This document shows, one piece after another, positions 602 through 49,867 of a DNA stretch of 49,883 bases (its first letter is position 1; the number at the start of each line of letters is the position of its first letter). The translations under genes were made by a program, and so were the position numbers. Source of the stretch: Candidatus Saccharimonadota bacterium (GTDB lineage: Bacteria; Patescibacteriota; Saccharimonadia; Saccharimonadales; Saccharimonadaceae); NCBI GenBank assembly GCA_030529135.1, contig JAUMXO010000006.1, positions 1-49,883 on the forward strand, read 5' to 3'. A model generated the notes under the pieces. The model did not search any database. It had not been told where the DNA came from and worked only from the letters and a program-made list of their open reading frames with translations.

Positions 602-1309
602 ATGAGTATGAGCGAAAAGATAGTGCAGCATGGAATAGAAATGGAGGCATTAAAATTAGAATATAACAAATATGCCGCCGAAAGCAGAGCTGCGCTAAGA
701 CTTACCCTGACCCGCATTGAGAACCTCAAAGAGGCCCTCGAAATGACCGGTCAGGACAACCCGTTTGACTTGATTGAAAGTCGCATTAAGACTTTCGAGT
801 CAGTCAAGGGTAAATGTAAGACTCGCGGGTATGAGCTAAACATTGAAAGTATCCGCGAGAACGTCAAGGACGTGGCTGGGATCCGCATCGTCACGAAATA
901 TATCGATGATGTGCAGAAGCTCGTAGGTCTTCTGGAAAAGATTCCAGGGCTCAACATAGTCGACAAGAAAGACTATATTACAGAGCCCAAGCCGAATGGC
1001 TACTCCAGTATCCATCTTGGATGCAAGGTAGAAGTTTTCACCGGAGTAGATGGCTCCAAGCTGGTCCCTATCGAGATCCAGCTGAGAAGCTACTCAATGA
1101 ACCTCTGGGCTACCCTGGAGCACGATCTCAAATATAAAAATGAGAACCCGTCTCCTGAGGTGACCAAGAAGTTCAAGCGTATCGCTGAATTCCTCCGTGA
1201 ATTCGACGAAGAGGCGATCGCTCTTCGCGATTATCACGAAATCAGCGAGAGTAACCTCGAAAGCTCCACTAGCAAAGAGAATGCCGAGACTATTATTAAC
1301 ATGGTCTAG
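602..1309 (+). CDS. Small alarmone synthetase, RelA/SpoT domain (GTP pyrophosphokinase)
   Basis: This 235-residue protein is predicted to make (p)ppGpp from ATP and GDP/GTP. It consists of one RelA/SpoT synthetase domain with DVAGIRI at 90-96, the KPNGYSSIHL substrate loop at 130-139 and an EIQLRS...WATLEH block near 157-173, and resembles the RelQ/YjbM class. No HD hydrolase, TGS or ACT domain is present, so ribosome-bound regulation as in RelA is not expected. AGGGGG at 591-596 is spaced 5 nt from the ATG. A consensus promoter lies upstream and a strong hairpin terminator follows, so it is monocistronic. Codons are richer in G/C than in the neighbouring housekeeping genes. Confidence 0.9.
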   Translation: MSMSEKIVQHGIEMEALKLEYNKYAAESRAALRLTLTRIENLKEALEMTGQDNPFDLIESRIKTFESVKGKCKTRGYELNIESIRENVKDVAGIRIVTKYIDDVQKLVGLLEKIPGLNIVDKKDYITEPKPNGYSSIHLGCKVEVFTGVDGSKLVPIEIQLRSYSMNLWATLEHDLKYKNENPSPEVTKKFKRIAEFLREFDEEAIALRDYHEISESNLESSTSKENAETIINMV

Positions 1310-1330
1310 ACATTTTCTAGATACCCTCCC

Positions 1331-1360
1331 AAAAAGCCTCAGCTTATGCTGGGGCTTTTT
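1331..1360 (+). terminator. Rho-independent terminator of alarmone synthetase gene
   Basis: A 13-bp stem (AAAAAGCCTCAGC with GCTGGGGCTTTTT, one G-T pair) closes a TTAT loop and ends in a T run. It lies 21 bp after the stop codon. Confidence 0.85.
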
Positions 1361-1417
1361 CATGTCTTACTAAACTTCAGAGTAGCTCATTAAAGTCTTT
1401 AAAACCATTCACTATAT

Positions 1418-2578
1418 TTACCAAACAATTTCAAAAACCAAACTTAGAGCTATCAACCCACCCATGATCAGGTTAAGCACCAAAACATTAAGCAGATGCA
1501 CTCGCCACTCACTAACAATATTTGCGACAAACTCCCTGACCGCCGCGTTTATATAAAAATACCATCTTGTCTTACTACCCACCCCCTCAACTTTTAGACC
1601 ATTTTTATTAGCAATAATACCGCTCCTAAAAACATGGTAATCAGAAGTAGCAAAAGCTATCTTTACATCCTCAAGAGAATTTATGGATTTTTTAGAAAGA
1701 TTTTTTAGGATAGCTTTCTTGCTATAACGCATATTCTGCCAAGTATTTATCGAACGATTTTCTACCAAAATGCGCCCGCGCGGTATTTTTTTCATCTCCA
1801 AATATTTTGCCATCGCATCTGCCTCAGAAATGACCTCATCACCACCCTGACCACCAGACACCACGAAAATCAATTTTTTACCACCAAGTTTTTGCTGCTC
1901 TCTATCAAAACTAAGCGCTCTTTCCACTCTCCCCCGAAGAAACGGAGTAAGATTTAAATCTTTCCCCGGATAACATCCCAGAATTATCATATAGTCCTGC
2001 TCTAATTTCGGACGATGCCGACCAGCCTTAATAGTGCAAACAAATGAGGCCACCAGCATACATTCAAAATATACCAAAGTAATATCCACGATATTTTCTA
2101 GGAAAATTACTAAATGAAAATCTTCGCGAGTAGTTATATCCAAAAAATTTATCAAAATATTATCCAAATTAATATCTAAAGCTATTGCCACCAAAGCACA
2201 AACACCTATAAATATACCAAGTAAATTGTTAAAATTCCTACCCTCGCGATAAATCACCACAATACTACCCAGCATCAAAAGCCCAGAGAGAATTATTGCA
2301 ATCGGAAAAACCAAATAAGAAACCTCAGAAAATAGTCCCAAAAAGCTCATATAAAGAATTTCCGGCCCAAGATCCCCGACTTCCGTCTGTATCTCTATCA
2401 AATTTGACAATTGTGATGCTAAAAGTATTATCGTTGACCCAAGAAATATAATTAAGCCCACCACTAACATAATCTTATAAGAATACATAGTCTTCTTAGA
2501 CGCTCTGAAGATATAAAAAATACAACCAATTAATGTAATAATCGTAAAAACTAATGCCAAGATATTCGATACCAACAT
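1418..2578 (-). CDS. YdcF-like (DUF218) membrane protein
   Basis: The 386-residue protein has about six hydrophobic segments in its first 190 residues, then a soluble DUF218/YdcF/SanA-type domain starting near YMIILGC. Family marks include LRGRVERAL, VSGGQGGDE followed by SEADAMAKYL, and ENRSINTWQN. A further hydrophobic stretch ends the protein. Members are linked to envelope integrity or wall metabolism in other bacteria, but the substrate is unknown. A TATAAT box at 2586-2591 sits 7 nt from the ATG, so the mRNA is probably leaderless. It is flanked by the rpsO terminator upstream and is transcribed alone. Confidence 0.75.
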   Translation of the reverse strand: MLVSNILALVFTIITLIGCIFYIFRASKKTMYSYKIMLVVGLIIFLGSTIILLASQLSNLIEIQTEVGDLGPEILYMSFLGLFSEVSYLVFPIAIILSGLLMLGSIVVIYREGRNFNNLLGIFIGVCALVAIALDINLDNILINFLDITTREDFHLVIFLENIVDITLVYFECMLVASFVCTIKAGRHRPKLEQDYMIILGCYPGKDLNLTPFLRGRVERALSFDREQQKLGGKKLIFVVSGGQGGDEVISEADAMAKYLEMKKIPRGRILVENRSINTWQNMRYSKKAILKNLSKKSINSLEDVKIAFATSDYHVFRSGIIANKNGLKVEGVGSKTRWYFYINAAVREFVANIVSEWRVHLLNVLVLNLIMGGLIALSLVFEIVW

Positions 2579-2597
2579 TAATAATATTATAACAATT

Positions 2598-2639
2598 AAT
2601 CAAAAAACTCGCTATTTTTATCTAGCGAGTTTTTTGATT
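2598..2639 (-). terminator. Bidirectional-type terminator after rpsO
   Basis: A 16-17 bp perfect stem (ATCAAAAAACTCGCTA with its complement) overlaps the rpsO stop codon and gives a T-rich tail on the minus strand. It separates rpsO from the YdcF-like gene promoter. Confidence 0.85.
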
Positions 2640-2904
2640 ATTTTCTGAGACCAAGTTTGGAAACGGTCTTCTTATAAAGCTCAAAATCTGTCTCTTCGAG
2701 ATATTTTAGAAGTTTTTTACGCTTCCCTACCATCTGGATAAGACCACGTTTAGCCATAAAGTCATGTTTATTATTCTTAACATGCTCAGTCACTTCTTTG
2801 ATGCGAGCAGTCAGAATAGCCACTTGAACTTCAGGAGAACCAACATCGTTCTTATTTCGAGCGACACTGGCAATAGCTTTATCTTTATTCTCTTTTGTTA
2901 TCAT
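2638..2904 (-). CDS. rpsO: 30S ribosomal protein S15
   Basis: S15 binds 16S rRNA in the small-subunit platform. The 88-residue product is full length for the family and shows the conserved GSPEVQVAILT motif, the H-x3-NKHDF segment and the GKRKKLLKYL helix. The ATG at 2904 is chosen over one 9 codons upstream because the -10 box at 2914-2919 overlaps that upstream region and the family begins here. The start lies 9 nt after TATAAT, implying a nearly leaderless mRNA. Its promoter overlaps that of the divergent truB gene. Confidence 0.95.
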   Translation of the reverse strand: MITKENKDKAIASVARNKNDVGSPEVQVAILTARIKEVTEHVKNNKHDFMAKRGLIQMVGKRKKLLKYLEETDFELYKKTVSKLGLRK

Positions 2905-2910
2905 AGTAGC

Positions 2911-2942
2911 ACCATTATACCACAGAATCATGGTATAATCAA
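2911..2942. promoter_or_regulatory. Overlapping divergent promoters of rpsO and truB
   Basis: For rpsO, TTGATT at 2937-2942 and extended -10 TGGTATAAT (box 2914-2919, minus strand) are 17 bp apart. For truB, an extended -10 TGGTATAAT has its box at 2934-2939. The rpsO -35 shares bases with the truB -10, so polymerase can occupy only one promoter at a time. Confidence 0.8.
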
Positions 2943-2945
2943 GGG

Positions 2946-3671
2946 GTGAAACCAGAAAATCCAGAAGACCAAATCATTTTAATAGACAAACCCGCCGGCA
3001 TTTCCAGCTTTGGCGTGGTAGCCAAAGTACGCGGTCAGCTCAAACAAGAATTTGGCCACAAAATTAAAGTTGGTCACACCGGTACTCTAGACCCCTTTGC
3101 CACCGGACTTATGATTTTGCTCTCTGGTAAATTTACCAAAAAATCTAACGATTTTCTAAAAAAAGATAAAGTTTACGAAGCTACTTTAAAGCTTGGCTAT
3201 ATTTCTACCACTGGCGATCCCGAAGGGCAAATTCAACCTTACTTAACCAAAGATCTTCCGGAGGTTATTACCGAGGATGAGGGTGCGAGCCCCGCAAAGA
3301 CGGGCACAAGCAACTCGTATCCGAAATTGAGTGAGATTGAATTTGTCCTTTCTTGTTTTGTGGGCGAAATAAAGCAAACCCCACCACGTTTCAGCGCTAT
3401 CAAAATCAATGGGGAGCGCGCTTACAAACTCGCTCGCAAAAATCAAGATTTCAAAATTCCTGCTAGAAAAGTCACTATTTATAGTATCGACATCTTAGAC
3501 TACAATTATCCCATTCTTAAAATTCGCTGTCATGTTTCTTCCGGCACTTATATTAGAACTCTCGCTGAAGATATCGGCAAAAAACTAAAAACTGGTGCTT
3601 ATTGCGAGGAACTAAGACGCACAAAAATCGGCGATTACAATATCGAAGATGCAAAGAAACTTGTGCTATAA
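2946..3671 (+). CDS. truB: tRNA pseudouridine(55) synthase TruB
   Basis: TruB converts U55 in the T-loop of tRNAs to pseudouridine. The catalytic aspartate is D49 in GHTGTLDPFATG; KPAGISS near residue 15 and the QTPPRFSAIKINGERAYKLAR block are further family marks. At 241 residues it lacks the C-terminal PUA domain of longer homologues. Residues about 100-127 form an extra segment between GDPEG and the LSEIEF helix, partly encoded by an imperfect DNA palindrome at 3275-3322. The start is GTG, exactly 6 nt after TATAAT, so translation is probably leaderless. Confidence 0.93.
   Translation: MKPENPEDQIILIDKPAGISSFGVVAKVRGQLKQEFGHKIKVGHTGTLDPFATGLMILLSGKFTKKSNDFLKKDKVYEATLKLGYISTTGDPEGQIQPYLTKDLPEVITEDEGASPAKTGTSNSYPKLSEIEFVLSCFVGEIKQTPPRFSAIKINGERAYKLARKNQDFKIPARKVTIYSIDILDYNYPILKIRCHVSSGTYIRTLAEDIGKKLKTGAYCEELRRTKIGDYNIEDAKKLVL
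3275..3322 (+). repeat. Imperfect palindromic insertion inside truB
   Basis: This GC-rich stretch (GGATGAG...CTCGTATCC outer arms, GTGC...GCAC and CCG...CGG inner arms) encodes part of a segment absent from typical TruB. It differs in composition from the surrounding gene. It may be a small palindromic element fixed in frame, comparable to the one in ligA, but the stem is interrupted. Confidence 0.4.
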
Positions 3672-3672
3672 T
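3667..3672 (+). promoter_or_regulatory. -10 box for PRC-barrel gene, leaderless spacing
   Basis: TATAAT lies across the truB stop codon and is followed after exactly 6 nt by the ATG at 3679. Confidence 0.7.
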
Positions 3673-3678
3673 AAAAGT

Positions 3679-4290
3679 ATGCTAATTGCTAATTCAAAAC
3701 TTATGAACTCGCCAATCTTAAGTATGCAAGATTCTGGCAGAGTCGCCACGATTACAAATTCTATTGTGAATCCTGACAATCTTAAAATCATCGCTTTCCG
3801 CGCCTACGGCGCAGTAAATAAAGATGGCGGCAACCTTCTAGATGTTAGATCTATTCGTGAATATTCTAAACTAGGCATCGTTATTGACTCTCGTGACGAG
3901 TTTGTCAGCCCTGACGACGTAGTCAAAATTAAAAAAGTTATTGAGCTGAATTTTAATCTCATTGGGCTTAAAGTCGTGACAAAAAAAGGCACCAAACTCG
4001 GTAAAATTATTGATTTTACCGTCACGGAAGACAACTTTTCCGTCCAACAAATCATCGTCAAGCGTACCGCCATTAAAGGCTTTATGGATCCAGAACTAGT
4101 CATCCCTCGCGTCGAGATCGCTGAAGTGACCGACGACAAAGTCATCGTCAAAAACGAAGCCAAAACCATCAAAGAACGCGCCTTAAAAGAAGACTTCGTA
4201 CCAAATTTCGTCAATCCGTTTCGGAAGACCGAAGAACCTGCTCCCGCACCGAGTCATATAGAAACCCCTGCCGAAGAAGATAAGCAGTAA
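3679..4290 (+). CDS. PRC-barrel domain protein
   Basis: The 203-residue protein contains two PRC-barrel-like halves, the clearer one around GLKVVTKKGTKLGKIIDFTV and ending near PRVEIAEVTDDKVIVK. PRC-barrels are small beta-barrels found in RimM and photosynthetic reaction centre H subunits and often bind RNA or proteins; the specific role here is unknown. The C-terminal tail is Pro/Glu/Ala-rich and probably disordered. The ATG at 3679 follows a TATAAT box by 6 nt. Its last 80 bp overlap the 3' end of recX on the opposite strand. Confidence 0.7.
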   Translation: MLIANSKLMNSPILSMQDSGRVATITNSIVNPDNLKIIAFRAYGAVNKDGGNLLDVRSIREYSKLGIVIDSRDEFVSPDDVVKIKKVIELNFNLIGLKVVTKKGTKLGKIIDFTVTEDNFSVQQIIVKRTAIKGFMDPELVIPRVEIAEVTDDKVIVKNEAKTIKERALKEDFVPNFVNPFRKTEEPAPAPSHIETPAEEDKQ

Positions 4291-4831
4291 GTTTTTCGTC
4301 ATCATATTTCGCTCGTTTTTTAGCAATAATTTTTGCAATTTCTTCTTCATCATTTCTATCAGAATTCGCCAAAACCTCATCAATAATATCTTTTGACACG
4401 CCCTTTTTCATCAGCTCCATCCTAAGCCTTTTAAGACTCACCCCTTTTTTCACAAACCGATTCTCCACATAATACTCCGCGAACCGTTCATCATCGAGAT
4501 ATTTTTTGGACTGTAATTTCTCAATAATTCTATCGATATAGTTTTTATCTAATTTTTTCTCAAAAATCTTCTTACATAAATAGTCTCTCGTCTCCTTTAT
4601 ACTTCGCGGTCGCACTAATACCCATTCCAGAGCCCTCTGATATAATTTCCCAAATTCTGAAGCTTTTTTAAATTCCTCCAATTGCTCCTCGGATATCACT
4701 AAACCCTTCTTGATTTTAAAATCCACCACCTGCGAAACATCCAAAGAAAAGGAAAACTTATCGTTCACATACACATTCACCCGGTCAGGATTCCTCACTC
4801 CCTGCTTTAAATCTGTGATTCTAATATCCAT
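4211..4831 (-). CDS. recX: Regulatory protein RecX
   Basis: RecX modulates RecA filament growth. The 206-residue protein shows the family's three-helix repeats, including YLCKKIFEKKLDKNYIDRIIEKLQ, the DDERFAEYYVENR motif and LRMELMKKGVSKDIIDEVL. The start at 4831 (MDIRITDLKQG) matches the usual family N-terminus and overlaps the Nudix stop by 11 nt; an ATG at 4852 would add seven residues. It is the third gene of recA-Nudix-recX and is presumably translationally coupled. Its 3' end runs 80 bp antisense into the PRC-barrel gene. Confidence 0.88.
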   Translation of the reverse strand: MDIRITDLKQGVRNPDRVNVYVNDKFSFSLDVSQVVDFKIKKGLVISEEQLEEFKKASEFGKLYQRALEWVLVRPRSIKETRDYLCKKIFEKKLDKNYIDRIIEKLQSKKYLDDERFAEYYVENRFVKKGVSLKRLRMELMKKGVSKDIIDEVLANSDRNDEEEIAKIIAKKRAKYDDEKLTAYLLRQGFLYDSVREQVLRSSETD

Positions 4832-5375
4832 GTTGCTTAAACCATTCACCAAGAAGCGCGAAAGTTAATTCGTCTTTTTTTAGTGGTGCTTTCGCGTATT
4901 TTACTCGGAACTCCTCCGTTTCATCAAACGGCACCCATTTAATTTCACTTACTTCCTTGTCATTAAAGTGAAAGTCTTCCGGTTTGTTGGTCCAATCAAC
5001 TGCATACACCCACGCAAAACGATTTTTGTTAAAACCTCTTTCCGTTACTAAACGAAGCTCGCTTGCATCAATCTCAGCTCCGATTTCCTCGCGCGTTTCT
5101 CGCACCGCTGCTTCCACAAACGATTCCCCTAAATTTACATGCCCACCCGCCGAAATGTCGTAATCTCCAGGATAACGATCAATTTTATCCGATCTTCTCT
5201 GCCACAATATTTCCAATACCCCATCGCTAGAGACTCGATACAAGAACACCACCGCCACGCCTACGATTTTCGAAGACCCAGTTTTTTCCGGATTATTCAA
5301 AGCTGAATTCCAACCTTCACCGGGGACAGGATCGCCATTTGGATTATAAACTTGCCACATTTCTTCTTTATGCAT
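4821..5375 (-). CDS. Nudix hydrolase
   Basis: A complete Nudix box (GHVNLGESFVEAAVRE...REEIGA, residues 78-100) shows that the 184-residue protein hydrolyses a nucleoside diphosphate linked to another moiety, using Mg2+. The N-terminal layout (VYNPNGDPVPG...WQRRSDKIDRYPG) is like the IDI/YfcD branch of the family, but the substrate cannot be read from sequence. GGAGGTAAA precedes the ATG. It lies 19 bp after recA and overlaps recX, an unusual position that suggests co-expression with recombination repair, perhaps for cleaning the nucleotide pool; that link is inference. Confidence 0.85.
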   Translation of the reverse strand: MHKEEMWQVYNPNGDPVPGEGWNSALNNPEKTGSSKIVGVAVVFLYRVSSDGVLEILWQRRSDKIDRYPGDYDISAGGHVNLGESFVEAAVRETREEIGAEIDASELRLVTERGFNKNRFAWVYAVDWTNKPEDFHFNDKEVSEIKWVPFDETEEFRVKYAKAPLKKDELTFALLGEWFKQHGY

Positions 5376-5394
5376 TTTACCTCCTAATCCAAAG

Positions 5395-6423
5395 CTAAAT
5401 TCCTAATTTTTCGCGTACCTTATTTTCAATTTCAGCCAAAAGCTCTGGTTTTTCTACAAATAATTTTTTCACAGCCTCACGTCCTTGACCAAGCGTTTCT
5501 CCGTTATATTTAATAAACGCGCCCGCCTTTTCAAGTACGCCATTAGCTACCGCCAAATCTAGTACATCCCCAGTCTTTGAAATCCCCTCGTTATACATAA
5601 TATCAAATTCTGCTGTTCTAAATGGCGCTGCAATTTTATTCTTTACTACTTTGATCTTGGTTCTATTGCCTGCAACGTTATCACCATCCTTAATTTGCCC
5701 AATCCTTCGAATATCTACTCGCACCGAAGCGTAGAACTTAAGAGCATTGCCACCAGTTGTAGTCTCTGGATTTCCAAACATCACCCCAATCTTCATTCGA
5801 ATCTGATTGATAAATATCACTGTGGCACGGGACTTGGAAATAATTCCAGTGAGCTTTCGCATTGCCTGAGACATAAGTCGCGCCTGAAGCCCCATTTGTG
5901 CATCACCCATATCGCCATCAATCTCTGCCTGTGGCACCAAAGCCGCCACCGAGTCTACTACGATCAGATCCACTGCATTAGACCTCACCAAAGTCTCACA
6001 AATCTCGAGAGCCTGTTCGCCATTGTCCGGCTGAGAGATGAGAAGATTCCCAGTATCTACACCAATTTTCTTCGCATAGGCTGGATCAAGTGCATGCTCC
6101 GCATCAATAAACGCCGCTTGCCCACCTTGTTTTTGGATCTCCGCAATCGCATGAAGGGCTAAAGTTGTCTTACCAGAAGATTCCGGTCCGTAAATCTCGA
6201 TAATTCGCCCCTTCGGCCAACCGCCACCAAGCGCCAAATCTAGAGACAAAGATCCAGAAGGAAGTAGCTGTACATCCATCTTTGGCGTCTCGCCAAGTTT
6301 CATGATTGAACCATCTCCGAACTGTTTGGTAATCTGAGCAATTGCCAGCTTCAAAGCCTCGTTCTTGCCATCATCTTTAGTGTCTTTATTTTCCACACCC
6401 TTATCCGCATCTTTTTTTGCCAT
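5395..6423 (-). CDS. recA: Recombinase RecA
   Basis: RecA forms ATP-dependent filaments on single-stranded DNA for strand exchange and repair. The 342-residue protein has Walker [10 protein letters not shown] at 79-87, Walker [11 protein letters not shown], the MAWxL-like L1/L2 region with [12 protein letters not shown] and the INQIRMKIG block. An N-terminal lysine/aspartate-rich tail of about 20 residues precedes the core. The ATG at 6423 is preceded by GGAGAAAG, which decides it over an upstream in-frame ATG. A promoter lies at 6452-6480. It heads an operon with a Nudix gene and recX. Confidence 0.97.
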
Positions 6424-6451
6424 ATTCTTTCTCCACTTTATAATTAATATC

Positions 6452-6480
6452 ATTGTAGCATATTCCCGTTGACATAGCAA
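6452..6480 (-). promoter_or_regulatory. recA promoter
   Basis: On the minus strand TTGCTA (6475-6480) is separated by 17 nt from TACAAT (6452-6457), which has an extended TG. No obvious LexA box of a known type overlaps it. Confidence 0.75.
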
Positions 6481-6514
6481 TTCATCGGGGTTATACTTAA
6501 AAAGGAAATAGGCG

Positions 6515-6543
6515 TTGACTTATACAGCTGTGTATGGTAGGAT
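6515..6543 (+). promoter_or_regulatory. Promoter with near-palindrome in its spacer
   Basis: TTGACT (6515-6520), a 17-nt spacer and TAGGAT (6538-6543) form a plausible promoter pointing right. The spacer holds TATACAGCTGTGTA, a near-perfect 14-bp palindrome well placed for a repressor. An ATG follows exactly 6 nt after the -10 box (at 6550) and opens a 13-codon frame; a hairpin with a T run lies directly downstream. Confidence 0.45.
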
Positions 6544-6558
6544 TAAATTATGGTTGGA

Positions 6559-6590
6559 TTACTTCTGCTTCTTAGCAGGAGTAATTTTTA
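6559..6590 (+). terminator. Terminator-like hairpin in recA-folD gap
   Basis: TTACTTCTGC and GCAGGAGTAA form a 10-bp stem with one G-T pair, followed by TTTTT. If the promoter at 6515-6543 is active, it would produce a very short RNA ending here. Confidence 0.5.
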
Positions 6591-6630
6591 GCTTAATAGT
6601 CACTTTCATTTCTTCCAGTTCTATCTGCAT
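6559..6630 (-). CDS. Putative 23-residue peptide with strong SD
   Basis: An ATG at 6630 is preceded by a full-strength AAAGGAGGTTGT and opens a 23-codon frame (MQIELEEMKVTIKLKITPAK...). The peptide is amphipathic and basic at its end. Nothing else explains the SD sequence, since the next gene in this direction, recA, starts 136 bp further on with its own promoter and SD. No homologue is recognised. The other 330 bp of this gap hold only the recA promoter and the rightward promoter/hairpin. Confidence 0.45.
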   Translation of the reverse strand: MQIELEEMKVTIKLKITPAKKQK

Positions 6631-6753
6631 ACAACCTCCTTTCATCTAACCACGTTTATTTTAAACTACGCCCGCACCTATCTCCTGTCACCCCTTATAG
6701 CATACCCATATTATAAAATCAACCCCCTACCCATCGCTCATGGTTAAAATATC

Positions 6754-7554
6754 TCAAACTTTTTTTGCCGCCTGTATCACATGATCAAACAGACATGTAA
6801 TCGTTAGCGGACCTACCCCGCCAATTACTGGAGTAATCGCAAGCAAGTCTTCTCGTTCTCGCACTTTAGAAGAGACATCACCCTTTATTACTCCATCTTC
6901 ACTTGCTGTCCCTGCATCCACCACCACCGCGCCAGGTTTTATAAATTCACTTTTAATTAATCCTGGCACTCCAGTTGCAGAAATGATTATATCAAAATCA
7001 ACAAGTTTTGTAAGATCCGACCCCCGATGAAACATTTCCACATTATATTTAGATTCGGTAAATATTTTAAAAAGTGGCGCACCCACTAGTTTTCCTCGCC
7101 CTACCAACGCAATTTTCGCATCACTAAGTTCAATTCCATATCCAGCAAGTAACCACAAAATCGCCGTAGCTGTTGCCGAATCAAAATCGCCATGAGAAGA
7201 AAGCCCATCCACATCCTTTGAAGGCAAAATCATCTCCGTCAGAGTATCTGTCTTCTCTTTTTCAAGAATCGGCAGCTGCAGAATAATTCCAGAAATAGCG
7301 TTGTCTTTATTAGCAGAGGCAATCTTCTCTGCAATATCGGCAACAGAATTAGCTTTATAATCAATCACAGAAATTCCGATGTCTTCACCATATTGCATTT
7401 TTAGCCGCACATATTTAAGAATTACTGGATTATCCGAATCACGAATAATCAAAAGCGTGGGCTTCCTAGAGAAACCTCGTACTTCGCCAGCCTGTCGCTC
7501 TTTAATAAAACCGGCTAGCTCTCGCCCGTCTAGGACCTTCACTTTGCTTACCAT
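6754..7554 (-). CDS. folD: Bifunctional methylenetetrahydrofolate dehydrogenase/cyclohydrolase FolD
   Basis: FolD interconverts 5,10-methylene-, methenyl- and 10-formyl-tetrahydrofolate using NADP. The 266-residue protein carries the catalytic YxxxK (Y48-K52), GIILQLPI, the PSKDVDGL loop and the Rossmann signature VGRGKLVGAP, ending with TPVIGGVGPLT. The cofactor loop is GRGKLVG where most homologues have GRSxxVG. Its ATG follows the murB stop without a gap, so the two genes are co-translated. One-carbon enzymes are among the few cofactor functions kept in such reduced genomes. Confidence 0.93.
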   Translation of the reverse strand: MVSKVKVLDGRELAGFIKERQAGEVRGFSRKPTLLIIRDSDNPVILKYVRLKMQYGEDIGISVIDYKANSVADIAEKIASANKDNAISGIILQLPILEKEKTDTLTEMILPSKDVDGLSSHGDFDSATATAILWLLAGYGIELSDAKIALVGRGKLVGAPLFKIFTESKYNVEMFHRGSDLTKLVDFDIIISATGVPGLIKSEFIKPGAVVVDAGTASEDGVIKGDVSSKVREREDLLAITPVIGGVGPLTITCLFDHVIQAAKKV

Positions 7555-8580
7555 TTATCTTTGCGCTCCGCGATTCTTGGTGTTAATAATTTCTACCGGC
7601 TCCTGCTCTAACCAATAGCCAAATTTATCATAAATCGTACTCGTAATCATCGCCCTAGCCCTAGCCAAATTCGCATAAGTTCCCGCAGATTCATTAATAA
7701 GAACTAGTGGTGCCGCTGGATTTACTCTTATACCATAAAGTAGTTGTCCTTTAAACCCGCACTGTTCCACAAACCAAGCCGAATTAATTTTGTTACCATC
7801 TCTTCCACGATGTACTGGGTAACCTTTCTCCTCAGCCTTTTCCGCTTCGATTGGATCAAGATAGACATTTTTGAAAAATGAGCCCGCACTCGCCTTCTCT
7901 CTAGGATCTGGCAATTTATCTTTGCGTATCGCCGAGACAATTTCTCTCACGCCTTTTGGCGAAAAATCCGCATAACCATAATCTTCGATATATTTTTCCA
8001 TTGAATTATAGAATGGTCTATCCATATGACCTTTCTTAAACTCCAAAGTCACGGAAGTAATAAAGAAGCGCCCTTTCATTGTGGTGTTCATAATACTTTT
8101 ACGATAGGCAAACTGCATATCTTTTTTCTCGAGTGTAATAAAGGTATGCGTTGCGGTATCGTAAGCTCTAGCACTCTTAAACACACCAGCTAGTTCCTGC
8201 CCATATGCACCAATATTTTGCGCTGGCGCCGCTCCGACTAGACCCGGAATTCTAGACAAAGCTTCTACACCTGTGTAACCTTTTTCGCAAGCATAATCCA
8301 CAATCGTATCCCAGTTTTCACCTGCCATCACAGTAATCTCACCATTGTTATCATTAAAACCACGCAAACGATTCAGGAGTATCACCCCGTCAAAGCCTTC
8401 ATCCCGCCCAATTGTATTAGCTCCACCGCTAATGATATAAGTAGGATACCAATAAGCACTGGCGAAATTATAAGCCTCGGGAATATCATTTTCCGACTCA
8501 ATTTCAAGCACATGCCGACTCGTCCCACCAATCCGCATGGTAGTAAGACTAGAGATAAATACATTTTCGTAGGATTTCAT
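7555..8580 (-). CDS. murB: UDP-N-acetylenolpyruvoylglucosamine reductase MurB
   Basis: MurB reduces the MurA product to UDP-MurNAc with NADPH and FAD in peptidoglycan synthesis. The 341-residue protein has the FAD-binding region TTMRIGG...GGANTIG, GLVGAAPAQNIGAYGQEL and the serine-containing AGSFFKNVYLDP active-site loop, and ends with EQEPVEI as in the E. coli-type (type I) enzyme. The start is the only plausible ATG; TACAAT about 20 nt upstream may be its -10. It is followed directly by folD. Confidence 0.93.
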   Translation of the reverse strand: MKSYENVFISSLTTMRIGGTSRHVLEIESENDIPEAYNFASAYWYPTYIISGGANTIGRDEGFDGVILLNRLRGFNDNNGEITVMAGENWDTIVDYACEKGYTGVEALSRIPGLVGAAPAQNIGAYGQELAGVFKSARAYDTATHTFITLEKKDMQFAYRKSIMNTTMKGRFFITSVTLEFKKGHMDRPFYNSMEKYIEDYGYADFSPKGVREIVSAIRKDKLPDPREKASAGSFFKNVYLDPIEAEKAEEKGYPVHRGRDGNKINSAWFVEQCGFKGQLLYGIRVNPAAPLVLINESAGTYANLARARAMITSTIYDKFGYWLEQEPVEIINTKNRGAQR

Positions 8581-8652
8581 AGGTTATTTCTTATCTTTTT
8601 ATTGTATCCTATCCTAAAATACTTGTCAATTTTATCCGTAATGAGCAGCAAG

Positions 8653-11600
8653 CTATGAATTATCAGGAGGGCTGTTAGGAAGGACCTCAGGCAAACCCAG
8701 CAATTCTCTGGTCCTTGTAGGCATAGAGTTAATAAGCTGCCTCGTAGGATCGGTATTCATCGTTGCCTTAATTTCATTCAAAGCATTAGTATAGGTTGAT
8801 GGGTCTAACGCCGGTCGCCCTTTTACCGTTCCTTGATTTGGGTCTAGCAACTCAGGTTTTAGTTTTGCCAACTCTGACATACTCAAGCTGTAATTCTGTT
8901 TACCATGATTATTTTTAAGTAAGTCTATTATTTCTTTTAGCTGTTTATTGTCAGTAGCATTTCCAGCAGCATTAAGTAAAGTCTGCGTATTAATTGCAGT
9001 TCCTTTCTCCTTCATATATCCTAATATATCATCATTCACACCATTAAGCTGGTTTGGACCTTTCCCTTCAATATTGCTTGCCAGACTTATAGGACCACCT
9101 CCAGAAGCATAGTCATTCAAAGACATAGATAAATTCTCTGATTTTCCCATGTCCTTACCGAAGCTACTCAAAGGAAGACTACTAGTAGCAGCCATTTGAT
9201 CAATAATTCTAGAGTCATGACTATCGGAAGAGTTAAGGACAATATTACCCAATGCACCATTCAACATCTCTTTATCCATACCGCGAGCAGAAGCGTTTTT
9301 AATCGCTCCCAAGAGAGCTGCCTCCGTACTCTCATTACGATTATCTGCATAAGCTTTCACGCTATTATTAAGTGCACTTTCAAGACCGGACCTTGTCATT
9401 CCGCTATATTGCAATTCATAATCATCGGACAGCTTCTTTCTTCTTTGTGCATCCGCATAATTCACGGCAGCCGCATCAGTAACCTCCACTGGTGGCCCTA
9501 TATTAGCCCCCTCTTGTTCATACTTAGCTTGATTCAGAATATCTTGAGCCTTTTGCCATTGCCTCTTTTCACTATCACTAAGATTACCATAGTTTCTCCC
9601 CTTAAATCTCCCTACTCTTCTGGCTGCATCTCTAATTCTCTTAGTCCTTGCTGCTTCTTCTTGTGCATTCTTATATCCTTCCGTACCCTGTACCGCTTTC
9701 AGTCCACCTTGCACCGCATTCCGCCCAGCGCTTCTCACAGTATTGCCCATTGAAGTTAACGCCGCACCTACTTTACCTAACGCGCTAATTGCGTTCGTGA
9801 GAAGCATCGGAATTAAGAAAAATCCAAGATACGGCAATACTAACAATATCAAATGTGTATACCATGGCAATTCAGCACCATCTTCTAAGGATCTAAGAAG
9901 TTGGCTGATCCCTGATAACGCCCCAAGTATCGGAAAAACAATCAATGCAGCTTTAAACAGCTCAGCCCATTTTTTAAATAATTGTTGAGTGTTTGGCAAA
10001 ACATACGCCACAAATGCAAACGGCGAAATCAATACACAAAACATTATTATAACCTGCCTAGCGCCTACCGCAAGAAGCAATATAAGAACTGCAATCGCAA
10101 TTGCAAGCAAAGCTATAATCACTAATATTATTATTGCTACCACACTTGGACCTAGAATTGCAGTTATCGCAGGAGCAGTAGTGGCTACAGCCGGCCCACC
10201 AGTCGAAGCGGCCGCAATCAATCCACCAACTGCTGTCCCAACATACGATGGTTCACCCACTTTATCAACACCATTAGCAATCCCACCAAACATATCCCTC
10301 AATCCTGTTCCAGCAATATTAGATACATCAACCAAAGCTTGACATATATAAATACTCAAATTCATAAGTATCGCTATTAATATCAGACGAGGCAGCATCT
10401 TCTTAATGCCATAGTTATCTATGCCATATCCAGTCAATTGCGAAATTACAACTATCAAGAAGAATAAAACCATCAATCCATTTGCTATATTTCGCACAAG
10501 CCCCCACGCATTCTCGATATCGTCATTATCATAAACCGAAGTCTTTACCTCGAGAAACTTTTGCGACATGTTGTCTAGCCAAGAGGCTGTATATTCCATA
10601 TTGTTCATCGTAGGACAAAGCAACCATTGCATCGGCCCTACCGTAGTGAAATCGTTACAATCAACTATTTCGCTATTGTCTGTAGTGCTTTGATTGATTG
10701 GCTTGCCTGGATTCGGCTTGCTAGCACCTTCATCCTCTTGCTCTTCTTCTATGATGTTTTCCGGGCAATCGTTCGGTGGAATATTGACAGTTCCAAAAAT
10801 AGAAACCCCACGACTGATAGTAGAAAAACTGTTTAAACCACTAATCACAGAATTATAATCAGCTATAGCATTACCCCCAAAAGTCGTACCGTTAAATCCC
10901 CCCATTGTATCAGTAGGGTTTATGCCACCAACATAACAAGTATTATATTCACCACCACCGTAAAGTGTAGTTCGTTTCCACCCAAGTTGATCAATTGCTT
11001 TCTTTTGATTCTCAGTTATAGATGTCAGACAGCATACCTTCGGACCATAATGACCAAGTAAATAATTCTGATATGTTATAAATTTCTCTGGCTCAGAAAA
11101 ACTTGGTTTAGCCCCACTCATAGGCATCTGTCCAGTCAAAAAATTGACGCCATTCTTCTTTACCTCATCAGTAACCTTCAATTCAAATTTTTGGTCTTCA
11201 CCAAAAGGAGAAGCATCTTCCCCCGTGCTAGCATCGCTAAGATCATTATATGTATAAGAAATACATATTTTTTCACCTCCTTCTACTCCACCAATAGTCT
11301 GTTCGCCAATAACAGCACCTCCGTTGTTCAATATACCATCAACAAGCGCCCCAAAGAAAGCGGCTGGATCCCCCCTATCTTGGCTAATAATCACTTTTTG
11401 TTTATCCCTTTTTGTGCATTTTCCATTATCGTAACCACGCCCACCGATCTCCACTTTTACACTACTTTCTCCAACGAGCGAGATTTTTACTAAACTCTCA
11501 GGCATTCTTAAATAATTATGATTAGAACTATCTTTTTTAAGAGTATGTTTTTTGACGCTTACATCTAATATCTTGTTGTTTGCATTCTTGTCATACATAA

Positions 11601-17989: not shown

Positions 17990-18011
17990 TGGTGCGGGTG
18001 AGGGTAATCGA
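17990..18011 (-). repeat. Copy of the tRNA-Gly(UCC) 3' end
   Basis: These 22 bp are identical to 18057-18078, the last 22 nt of tRNA-Gly(UCC) including CCA, shifted by 67 bp. GGGTAATCG in the copy can pair with CGATTCCC at 18021-18028 in the spacer. No other part of a tRNA is recognisable. Confidence 0.9.
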
Positions 18012-18056: not shown

Positions 18057-18131
18057 TGGTGCGGGTGAGGGTAATCGAAACCCTTTCTCGAGTTTGGAAA
18101 ACTCGCATACTAACCGTTGTACTACACCCGC
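18057..18131 (-). tRNA. tRNA-Gly (anticodon UCC), CCA encoded
   Basis: The cloverleaf is complete: acceptor GCGGGTG/CACCCGC, D-loop with GG, anticodon stem CGAGT/ACTCG with loop TTTCCAA, T-arm AGGGT-TTCGATT-ACCCT, discriminator A73 and genomic CCA. A73 differs from the U73 usual in bacterial tRNA-Gly. It is transcribed after tRNA-His in one unit. Confidence 0.95.
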
Positions 18132-18141
18132 ATAATATTAA

Positions 18142-18171
18142 ACTGTGGGGTGGGATATCGGGATCGAACCG
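18142..18171 (-). repeat. Copy of the tRNA-His 3' end
   Basis: These 30 bp are identical to 18211-18240: the T-arm 3' part, acceptor 3' strand and CCA of tRNA-His plus three following bases, shifted by 69 bp. The spacer carries GATACCCAC (18199-18207), complementary to GTGGGATATC in the copy except for one bulged base, so the copy can rebuild an acceptor-like stem. Confidence 0.9.
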
Positions 18172-18214: not shown

Positions 18215-18292
18215 TGGGGTGGGATATCGGGATCGAACCGACGACCTTCTGGACCACAATCAGACGCTCTAACCATCTGAGCTAATCCCACC
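18215..18292 (-). tRNA. tRNA-His (anticodon GUG), CCA encoded
   Basis: Acceptor GTGGGAT/ATCCCAC is extended by G-1 opposite C73, the histidine identity pair. The anticodon loop is TTGTGGT. The anticodon stem TCTGA/CCAGA has an A-C mismatch at its loop-closing pair. The T-arm is GTCGG-TTCGATC-CCGAT. TATAAT at 18302-18307 (minus) lies just upstream and overlaps the end of the neighbouring gene. Confidence 0.95.
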
Positions 18293-19377: not shown

Positions 19378-20148
19378 TTATTTTTTCACTCTCTTTGCTG
19401 TGTCTATTATATCAGTAAATTGCTGAAGTATCAAGCTCGCACCGCCAATCAAAAGTCCATTTATACCAGGCACAGTCAAATATGCACCCGCATTGGTTGG
19501 CTTTACGCTCCCACCAAAGAGTACCGGCACTGCTTCGGCTACTTTTGTACCATAAATTTCCTTCAAATTCCCACGAATCATTTCTACTACCTCCGCAATC
19601 TCGTCAGGAGTAGCTTGTTTTGCGTCTTTCGTAGAAGAAATCGCCCAAACTGGTTCGTATGCCACAATCACTTTACTTATATCTTCCTCACTTACCTCTG
19701 ATAAACCACCCATTAGCTGATCGTGAATTACGTCTTTCGTTTCACCAAATGCTCTCTCGCTTTCAATTTCCCCTATGCAAAGAATTGGTGTAATTTTATT
19801 TCTAATACAAGCGGCCACTTTTTTTGCAATCGTCTTATCATCTTCATGAAAAATATATCGTCTCTCTGAATGTCCAATAATGCAATAATTTACTAGTCCT
19901 GAAAGCTCCGCAAACGAAATCTCCCCCGTATAAGCTCCAAAATCCTGATAAAATGCGTTTTGCGCAGCAAGTTTCATTTTGGACCGTTCAATCTGCAAAG
20001 ATAGAGGCTGCAAGCAAACCGCAGTCGGCGCCACCACCACTTCTATATCTCTATAATTTGATATTTTTTTCTGCAATTTATGTAGATAAATTGACGCTTC
20101 CCCCACGTTAAAATTCAACTTCCAGTTGCCCACAATATAAGTTTTCAT
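19378..20148 (-). CDS. tpiA: Triosephosphate isomerase
   Basis: TpiA interconverts dihydroxyacetone phosphate and glyceraldehyde 3-phosphate. The 256-residue TIM barrel shows GNWKLN with the active-site lysine at residue 10, the histidine in GHSERR, the catalytic glutamate in AYEPVWAI and the phosphate loop GGSVKPTNA. The ATG at 20148 is exactly 6 nt after TATAAT; upstream in-frame ATGs would lie in or before the promoter and are rejected. Confidence 0.96.
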   Translation of the reverse strand: MKTYIVGNWKLNFNVGEASIYLHKLQKKISNYRDIEVVVAPTAVCLQPLSLQIERSKMKLAAQNAFYQDFGAYTGEISFAELSGLVNYCIIGHSERRYIFHEDDKTIAKKVAACIRNKITPILCIGEIESERAFGETKDVIHDQLMGGLSEVSEEDISKVIVAYEPVWAISSTKDAKQATPDEIAEVVEMIRGNLKEIYGTKVAEAVPVLFGGSVKPTNAGAYLTVPGINGLLIGGASLILQQFTDIIDTAKRVKK

Positions 20149-45775: not shown

Positions 45776-45852
45776 GCGAATGTAGCTCAGTTGTTTAGAG
45801 CGCTTCCTTGCCAAGGAAGAGGTCGAGAGTTAGAGTCTCTTCATTCGCACCA
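45776..45852 (+). tRNA. tRNA-Gly (anticodon GCC) with altered 19-56 pair, CCA encoded
   Basis: Acceptor GCGAATG/CATTCGC, anticodon stem CTTCC/GGAAG with loop TTGCCAA, T-stem GAGAG/CTCTT and A73-CCA. The D-loop reads AGTTGTTTA (G19 to U) and the T-loop TTAGAGT (C56 to A), so the near-universal G19-C56 tertiary pair is replaced by U19-A56. The co-change suggests a functional tRNA. Confidence 0.93.
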
Positions 45853-45903
45853 TTTTTATGCTCCAGATTTCTTTCTCCAGTTAAAACTCTCGGGCTACGC
45901 CAA

Positions 45904-45937
45904 CGAGAGTTAGAGTCTCTTCATTCGCACCATTTTT
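45904..45937 (+). repeat. Copy of the tRNA-Gly(GCC) 3' end
   Basis: These 34 bp are identical to 45824-45857: the whole T-arm with its unusual TTAGAGT loop, the acceptor 3' strand, CCA and five T, shifted by 80 bp. AACTCTCG (45885-45892) in the spacer pairs perfectly with CGAGAGTT at the start of the copy around an 11-nt loop. Confidence 0.92.
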
Positions 45938-49710: not shown

Positions 49711-49733
49711 AATGGTAGCCGGAACGGGACTTG
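49711..49733 (-). repeat. Copy of the tRNA-Leu 3' end
   Basis: These 23 bp are identical to 49781-49803: the T-loop end, T-stem 3' strand, acceptor 3' strand and CCA plus two bases, shifted by 70 bp. GGGACT in the copy pairs with AGTCCC at 49749-49754 in the spacer. Confidence 0.92.
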
Positions 49734-49782: not shown

Positions 49783-49867
49783 TGGTAGCCGGAACGGGAC
49801 TTGAACCCGTACGGATTGCTCCATTCGATTTTAAGTCGAACGCGTATACCAATTCCGCCATCCGGCC
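49783..49867 (-). tRNA. tRNA-Leu (anticodon UAA), CCA encoded
   Basis: This class II tRNA has acceptor GGCCGGA/TCCGGCT with a G1-U72 wobble pair, anticodon stem TTCGA/TCGAA with loop CTTAAAA, a long variable arm (GGA-GCAA-TCC), T-arm ACGGG-TTCAAGT-CCCGT and A73-CCA. It decodes UUA/UUG. Confidence 0.95.

Follow-up and report, generated by a model that had tools for sequence, protein, structure and literature searches.

Hairpin-linked copies of tRNA 3' ends recur behind tRNA genes in Saccharibacteria

Behind the tRNA-Gly(GCC) gene of a Saccharibacteria genome stands a second, exact copy of that gene's own 3' end, which raises the question of how a tRNA gene comes to be followed by its own tail. 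The locus lies in a window of 49,883 nt, the whole stretch of DNA that was analysed, and all positions are those of the window unless a contig is named. An earlier note had described a 34-bp copy, which was confirmed as exact: positions 45824-45857 equal 45904-45937 without mismatch, the repeat extending past the CCA into the T run. The 8-bp stem that it had placed between the spacer and the start of the copy was also found, since AACTCTCG (45885-45892) and CGAGAGTT, the first letters of the copy, are exact reverse complements, and this pairing holds as a general rule across the set of units described below. Folded as RNA, the unit forms the 8-bp stem, an AA bulge, 3 bp and a TAC loop, and the fold energy of this hairpin alone is unremarkable (z -1.57). 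An intrinsic terminator requires a GC stem with an immediate T run; here 21 nt (45912-45932) lie between the stem end and the T run, so this interpretation was rejected. Rfam at gathering score returned only tRNAs in the 49,883-nt window, and no RNA family matches the unit. The family HPnc0260 was discarded as sub-threshold (40.6 of 59 bits), its match being the antisense of the T-arm.

The Gly(GCC) copy had been counted as the third of its kind, but exact tRNA 3'-end copies are found at four tRNAs of the window, His, Gly(TCC), Gly(GCC) and Leu(TAA), the last of which brings the number to four (Table 1). The tRNA-Cys and tRNA-Glu genes of the window have no 3'-end copy.

Table 1. Features of the Gly(GCC) locus and the other tRNA 3'-end copies in the window.
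Feature	Position	Strand	Basis
tRNA-Gly(GCC), T-loop TTAGAGT (A56), D-loop AGTTGTTTA (U19)	45776..45852	+	ARAGORN; Rfam RF00005 70.1 bits; sequence
Spacer from tRNA CCA to anti strand, 32 nt, T run at its start	45853..45884	+	sequence
Anti strand AACTCTCG, complementary to the first 8 nt of the copy (8 bp)	45885..45892	+	sequence; fold
Cap GGCTACGCCAA, 11 nt: upper stem GGC/GCC 3 bp, loop TAC, 3' bulge AA	45893..45903	+	sequence; fold
Exact 29-nt copy of the tRNA-Gly(GCC) 3' end, CCA included	45904..45932	+	sequence
26-nt copy of the tRNA-His 3' end, behind tRNA-His (18215-18291)	18146..18171	-	sequence
22-nt copy of the tRNA-Gly(TCC) 3' end, behind tRNA-Gly(TCC) (18057-18131); anti strand AGGGAATCG precedes the cap	17990..18011	-	sequence
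21-nt copy of the tRNA-Leu(TAA) 3' end, behind tRNA-Leu (49783-49867)	49713..49733	-	sequence

The T-loop of the Gly(GCC) tRNA is unusual, and the idea that its change always accompanies the copy did not hold. Among Gly(GCC) rows from the order, 75/75 have TTAGAGT together with U19, whether a copy follows or not (these rows being partly overlapping loci, not made distinct), as against 0/4 from other classes, while in the genus copies stand at only 17/62 Gly(GCC) loci, collected in two overlapping searches and made distinct by their downstream sequence. The D-loop in these rows is AGTTGTTTA, with AGTCGTTTA in a single row. The G19-C56 elbow pair is near-universal in tRNAs; in this tRNA, U19 can pair with A56 and substitute for it. 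TTAGAGT/U19 is an old shared trait of the Gly(GCC) tRNA, unrelated to the copy. Since the change is fixed across the order whether or not a copy is present, it long predates the copies and gives no clue to their age, and its use as a date mark was rejected. The earlier interpretation is supported in part: the T-loop change and the copy do not go together, but the proposal that the copy is either recent or kept identical holds, most copies being equal to the current tRNA throughout. The case that the earlier note named as refuting, in which a single copy alone has the ordinary T-loop, was seen in 0/22 Gly hairpin units, one of which (L035) has a single loop change.

The genome of the window measures 787 kb and is 97% complete; its neighbours, as judged by a Na/Ca-exchanger protein, are ruminant-gut Candidatus Saccharibacteria, e.g., Ca. 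Nanosyncoccus alces. Copies were called as exact shared stretches, with thresholds of 12, 13, 15 or 17 nt depending on the analysis. With at least 12 nt and at most 400 nt downstream, copies of the own 3' end occur at 18/44 tRNA genes of this genome, and the stricter measure used across genomes (13 nt, at most 220 nt) gives 17/43. The last 24 nt of every tRNA were also scanned against 782,444 of the 787,054 bases, accepting at least 15 exact nt. Twenty matches fell outside tRNA genes, 17 of them 44-155 nt downstream of their own tRNA and on the same strand (Ala twice). The other three are a Gln(CTG) end behind Gln(TTG) (G000:C19, 17398-17421), after which part of the Gln(TTG) end itself is repeated; a Ser match that coincides with the copy of Ser(CGA) and was counted for another Ser tRNA; and a weak Phe match (17/24) at window position 20013, ascribed to chance. 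A typical copy starts about 45 bases beyond its tRNA. The tRNA 3'-end copies behind their own tRNA exceed chance expectation.

The pattern is real and lineage-wide. Among the genomes compared, mostly MAGs, the nearest relative examined (G007, part of the genome) has copies at 8/24 tRNAs, partly other tRNAs than in the genome of the window. Per-locus counts in the genus are 4/24 for Leu(TAA), 4/11 for Glu(TTC) and 0/60 for Cys. Other families of the order carry copies more rarely (6/50 tRNAs), and their units are longer: about 90-160 nt separate the tRNA from the start of the copy, and some units contain antisense T-arm pieces. In other classes of the phylum, 1/52 tRNAs has a copy, and that one lacks the CCA. 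The copies are sporadic, gained and lost among relatives, and the pattern is order-specific with fast turnover. No description of such copies was found in the literature on Saccharibacteria, of which coverage was partial, so that their absence there is unproven; the accessible part of PMC13059738 contains nothing on them.

The units follow a common order: tRNA, CCA, spacer, anti strand, structured cap and the tRNA's own 3' end, with a spacing of 40-62 nt in 43/55 units. A stem of at least 7 Watson-Crick pairs with the T-arm of the own tRNA is formed in 29/55 distinct units, compared with 4.7% of 2768 pairings with the arms of other tRNAs, and 40/55 can form a Watson-Crick stem of at least 6 with some part of the final 45 nt of their tRNA. 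The copy begins where the anti strand pairs. In 32 of those 40 units, the offset between the first anti-paired base and the first copied base is 0 to 3 nt, and the rule holds although copy lengths vary (18-19, 21-22 and 29-31 nt) with different start positions in the tRNA. Lower-stem mismatches comprise 10 G.T, 5 A.C and 20 others, numbers insufficient to assign a strand. Equal units occur in short arrays at Ala, Leu-GAG and Gly.

Caps measure 8-14 nt, and 15 of the 17 distinct ones contain a 3-bp inner stem (2000 shuffles: mean 2.1, maximum 7); in the caps listed, a bulge or mismatch, judged by eye, separates the inner from the lower stem. The cap TTCTTCGAAT is present in 14/44 units and absent from the host tRNA. 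The pattern GTTCTTCGAATCRA occurs 20 times in 7/27 genomes of the genus and 4 times in the other 219 genomes (1 and 4 for the reversed-pattern control). Nineteen of the 20 occurrences lie 30-110 nt downstream of a tRNA in the same orientation; they represent 12 isoacceptors, and every one of the 19 continues into the sequence of its own tRNA, two Asp copies ending early. The twentieth is the second repeat of locus L267 (G026:C3, 258-1530), 1.2 kb behind a tRNA-Tyr unit; there, an ORF of 323 aa resembling a membrane protein, with no Pfam or PHROG match, lies between two 30-nt repeats made of cap and tRNA-Tyr 3' end.

Some irregular loci were recognised by eye. In G042, the unit behind tRNA-Arg(GCG) (L235) combines the antisense of the Arg T-arm with the 3' end of tRNA-Ser(GCT), and near it lies an antisense pseudo-tRNA-Ser with a hairpin within its T-loop. 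In G022 (L052), a tRNA-like sequence behind Gly(GCC) keeps the acceptor and T-arm, with hairpins replacing the D and anticodon arms.

Most probably the units are products of mutation at tRNA genes, in genomes where MutS1 and full SbcD are not detectable. As their origin we favour, at a probability of roughly 0.4, repeated template switches during the replication of tRNA genes, followed by spread and homogenisation, the Gly(GCC) unit being one of a lineage-wide set of tRNA-tail duplications. A tRNA gene in single-stranded form would fold strongly, and replication may stall there. The nascent strand would then switch template and copy a short T-arm/acceptor piece backwards, which would become the anti strand; it would fold over a small cap and rejoin the tRNA at the start of the backward-copied piece, after which the 3' end and the CCA would be copied a second time. 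Such a backward copy, fold and return to the start of the piece would couple the anti strand to the copy start by construction. Later, units could expand into short arrays, recombination could homogenise them with the tRNA, the same template switching could keep the arms complementary, and units could be lost between their direct repeats or occasionally reach other tRNA genes by way of the T-loop sequence that these have in common. Template switching is reported to create and maintain hairpins in the accessible part of PMC8794818.

The near confinement of copies to their own tRNA (17/20), the reverse complement joined at the start of its source in the 32/40 units and the arrays of equal units all argue for template switching. 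The same flank follows both tRNA and copy in 9/49 CCA-ending units, as re-copying predicts, but is missing in 40/49. Mirror-image 5'-end copies stand upstream of 8/396 loci, in some cases accompanied by a foldback complement, which shows that the process does not depend on transcript 3' ends. Upstream of tRNA-Thr(GGT) (G000:C22, upstream of 77456), a copy of the 5' half of the tRNA is followed by its near reverse complement in a long foldback (153-nt piece, predicted -52 kcal/mol). In addition, mutS1 gave no match in 30 genomes (11/14 controls over the cut-off), and sbcD gave none over the cut-off in the same number of genomes, with 4 weak matches (8/14 controls over it). Such a background would be expected to let hairpins, near-repeats and imperfect repeats survive. 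Enzyme-borne origins were checked as well. Reverse transcriptase was found in 39/60 genomes of the genus and Y1 transposase in 2/60, and neither was found in the genome of the window (97% complete); an origin by reverse transcription (retroelement) and one of the Y1/REP type (IS200/IS605, REP-RAYT) were both rejected on this ground, and the missing enzymes fit template switching. Against template switching stand the recurrent cap TTCTTCGAAT and the occurrence of GTTCTTCGAATCRA at 12 isoacceptors. No host tRNA can be the source of a cap shared in this way, which must therefore be dispersed by something else, and the 3-bp inner stem with a helix defect below it looks selected. The retention of the arms in decayed Gly units, counted below, also speaks against it, with a bias from the way in which these units were found. 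There is a fair chance that something more directed than mutation is at work.

One such process, possible if unlikely, would make the anti strand and cap a discrete miniature element that pairs with the T-arm and is inserted beside the tRNA by a putative structure-reading recombinase, the tRNA 3' end being duplicated from the pairing point to the CCA like the attL/attR of integrated elements. The arrangement of tRNA, body and 3'-end copy matches tRNA-integrated elements, the copy start is set by the pairing point, caps are structured, caps and spacer styles recur at different tRNAs, and the ORF at tRNA-Tyr of G026 is flanked by two cap-and-copy repeats; yet the genome of the window holds no orphan copies elsewhere, and the body of about 45 nt encodes no enzyme. 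Y1 transposase is present in only 2/60 genomes of the genus, and the sole PF00589 recombinase present in nearly all genomes is the size of Xer, with a single gene in each. The flanks did not tell insertion from duplication: compared with the empty allele in 46 cases, the post-copy flank was nearer in 24 (as insertion would have it), the post-tRNA flank in 17, and both were equal in 5. A first filled-vs-empty comparison (best 22 rows) had given an insertion signal, with the empty allele picked by the post-copy flank and unequal windows, and the claim was dropped because this fair repeat gave no support. In its strongest form, a mobile guide hairpin of 45-60 nt, acting as a minimal integrase-like system guided by base pairing, leaving a direct repeat defined by the pairing point and occasionally carrying a gene as at this tRNA-Tyr, the proposal is quite improbable. 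It is also unlikely that the units persist because they are useful, as a transcribed trailer hairpin with a tRNA-like 3' end and a role in termination, in 3' processing or as a decoy. The caps change their letters and keep the 3-bp stem, small loop and helix defect, and arms are retained in decayed Gly copies. At copy sites 1-18 (T-arm), 19-22 of the 22 Gly units have the tRNA letter at each site, compared with 11-19 at the last 11 sites (acceptor strand and CCA; nine sites 11-14). In the 10 most decayed units, 8/80 non-seed arm sites differ, as against 102/190 elsewhere in the copy, a figure inflated by small insertions; the units were found through six-base arm seeds, which biases them towards intact arms, and the seeds were excluded from the count. 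At Asp, the T-arm hairpin has turned into a plain terminator, an exception to the T-run distance. Sporadic presence among close relatives and the Cys gene without copy in 60/60 loci speak against usefulness, as do the mirror copies upstream of tRNAs and, in the window, the distant T run, the ordinary hairpin energy and the lack of an Rfam match.

Finally, the copies might be ordinary attR scars, remnants of deleted phages or integrative elements at tRNA 3' ends, which we regard as very improbable. Partial tRNA copies are a usual mark of integration according to the accessible part of PMC9897764; the units do contain a tRNA 3' fragment with CCA on the same strand, and large serine recombinases that face tRNAs are abundant in the genus (PF07508 in 31/60 genomes). 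Among the PF07508 loci fetched, a tRNA was near in 19/30, and 18/20 tRNAs in these loci face the 3' end of the recombinase; over the 60 genomes, these recombinases face tRNA 3' ends of ten amino-acid types. An element of 9.7 kb, L207 (G007:C2, about 840-10675, tRNA-Ala), even has a hairpin at its far copy. Its divergent serine recombinase gene overlaps the tRNA (Resolvase domain, E 2.4e-9; PHROG integrase), and it also encodes a C5 cytosine methylase and a primase-like protein. One unit class may stem from elements of this type. Against scars speaks the tight spacing (40-62 nt, 43/55 units), unlike random deletions, as well as the order at the two elements whose far end could be recognised, L343 and L347 (G026, Leu-GAG, 5.8 kb; G279, Gln-CTG, 11.3 kb). 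There the tRNA is followed by the element, a displaced tRNA 3' end and a small unit in turn, i.e., the element sits between the tRNA and a pre-existing unit and has its own displaced 3' end before the latter. The small unit is therefore separate from the integrated element, and its interpretation as a serine-recombinase scar was rejected for both loci.

Several known systems resemble the units in part. The distal repeats of E. coli tyrT carry part of the tRNA 3' end (rtT RNA) and are likewise tandem units behind a tRNA, each with its 3' end; those repeats are longer and belong to a single locus, whereas the Saccharibacteria units occur at dozens of loci under a lineage-wide rule, and we know of no comparable rule of anti strand and cap for tyrT. 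Integron attC sites, IS200/IS605 and REP are single-strand hairpins that are recognised by structure, contain extrahelical bases and vary in sequence, features that the units share, although no integron integrase or Y1 transposase (2/60 genomes) is known to be associated with them. Judging from the accessible part of PMC8794818, template-switch quasipalindromes also have an adjacent reverse-complement copy, a small loop, complementary arms and no enzyme of their own; here, in contrast, a gene end is re-copied, the site is always a tRNA and one cap is found at 12 tRNA types. With attL/attR in tRNA genes, as presented in the accessible part of PMC9897764, the units share a complete tRNA on one side and a CCA-bearing 3' fragment on the other, on the same strand, but their body measures 40-60 nt instead of kilobases, they have no integrase, they carry a hairpin at the far copy, and they also occur beside real integrated elements.

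In one bacterial order, then, tRNA genes repeatedly gain hairpin-linked copies of their own ends. Annotators should take note that tRNA fragments in these genomes alone do not mark prophages. If guided insertion were true, the units would be, to our knowledge, the smallest targeted element known. If template switching is true, Saccharibacteria would be a natural test bed for tRNA-driven replication errors and for new RNA hairpins.
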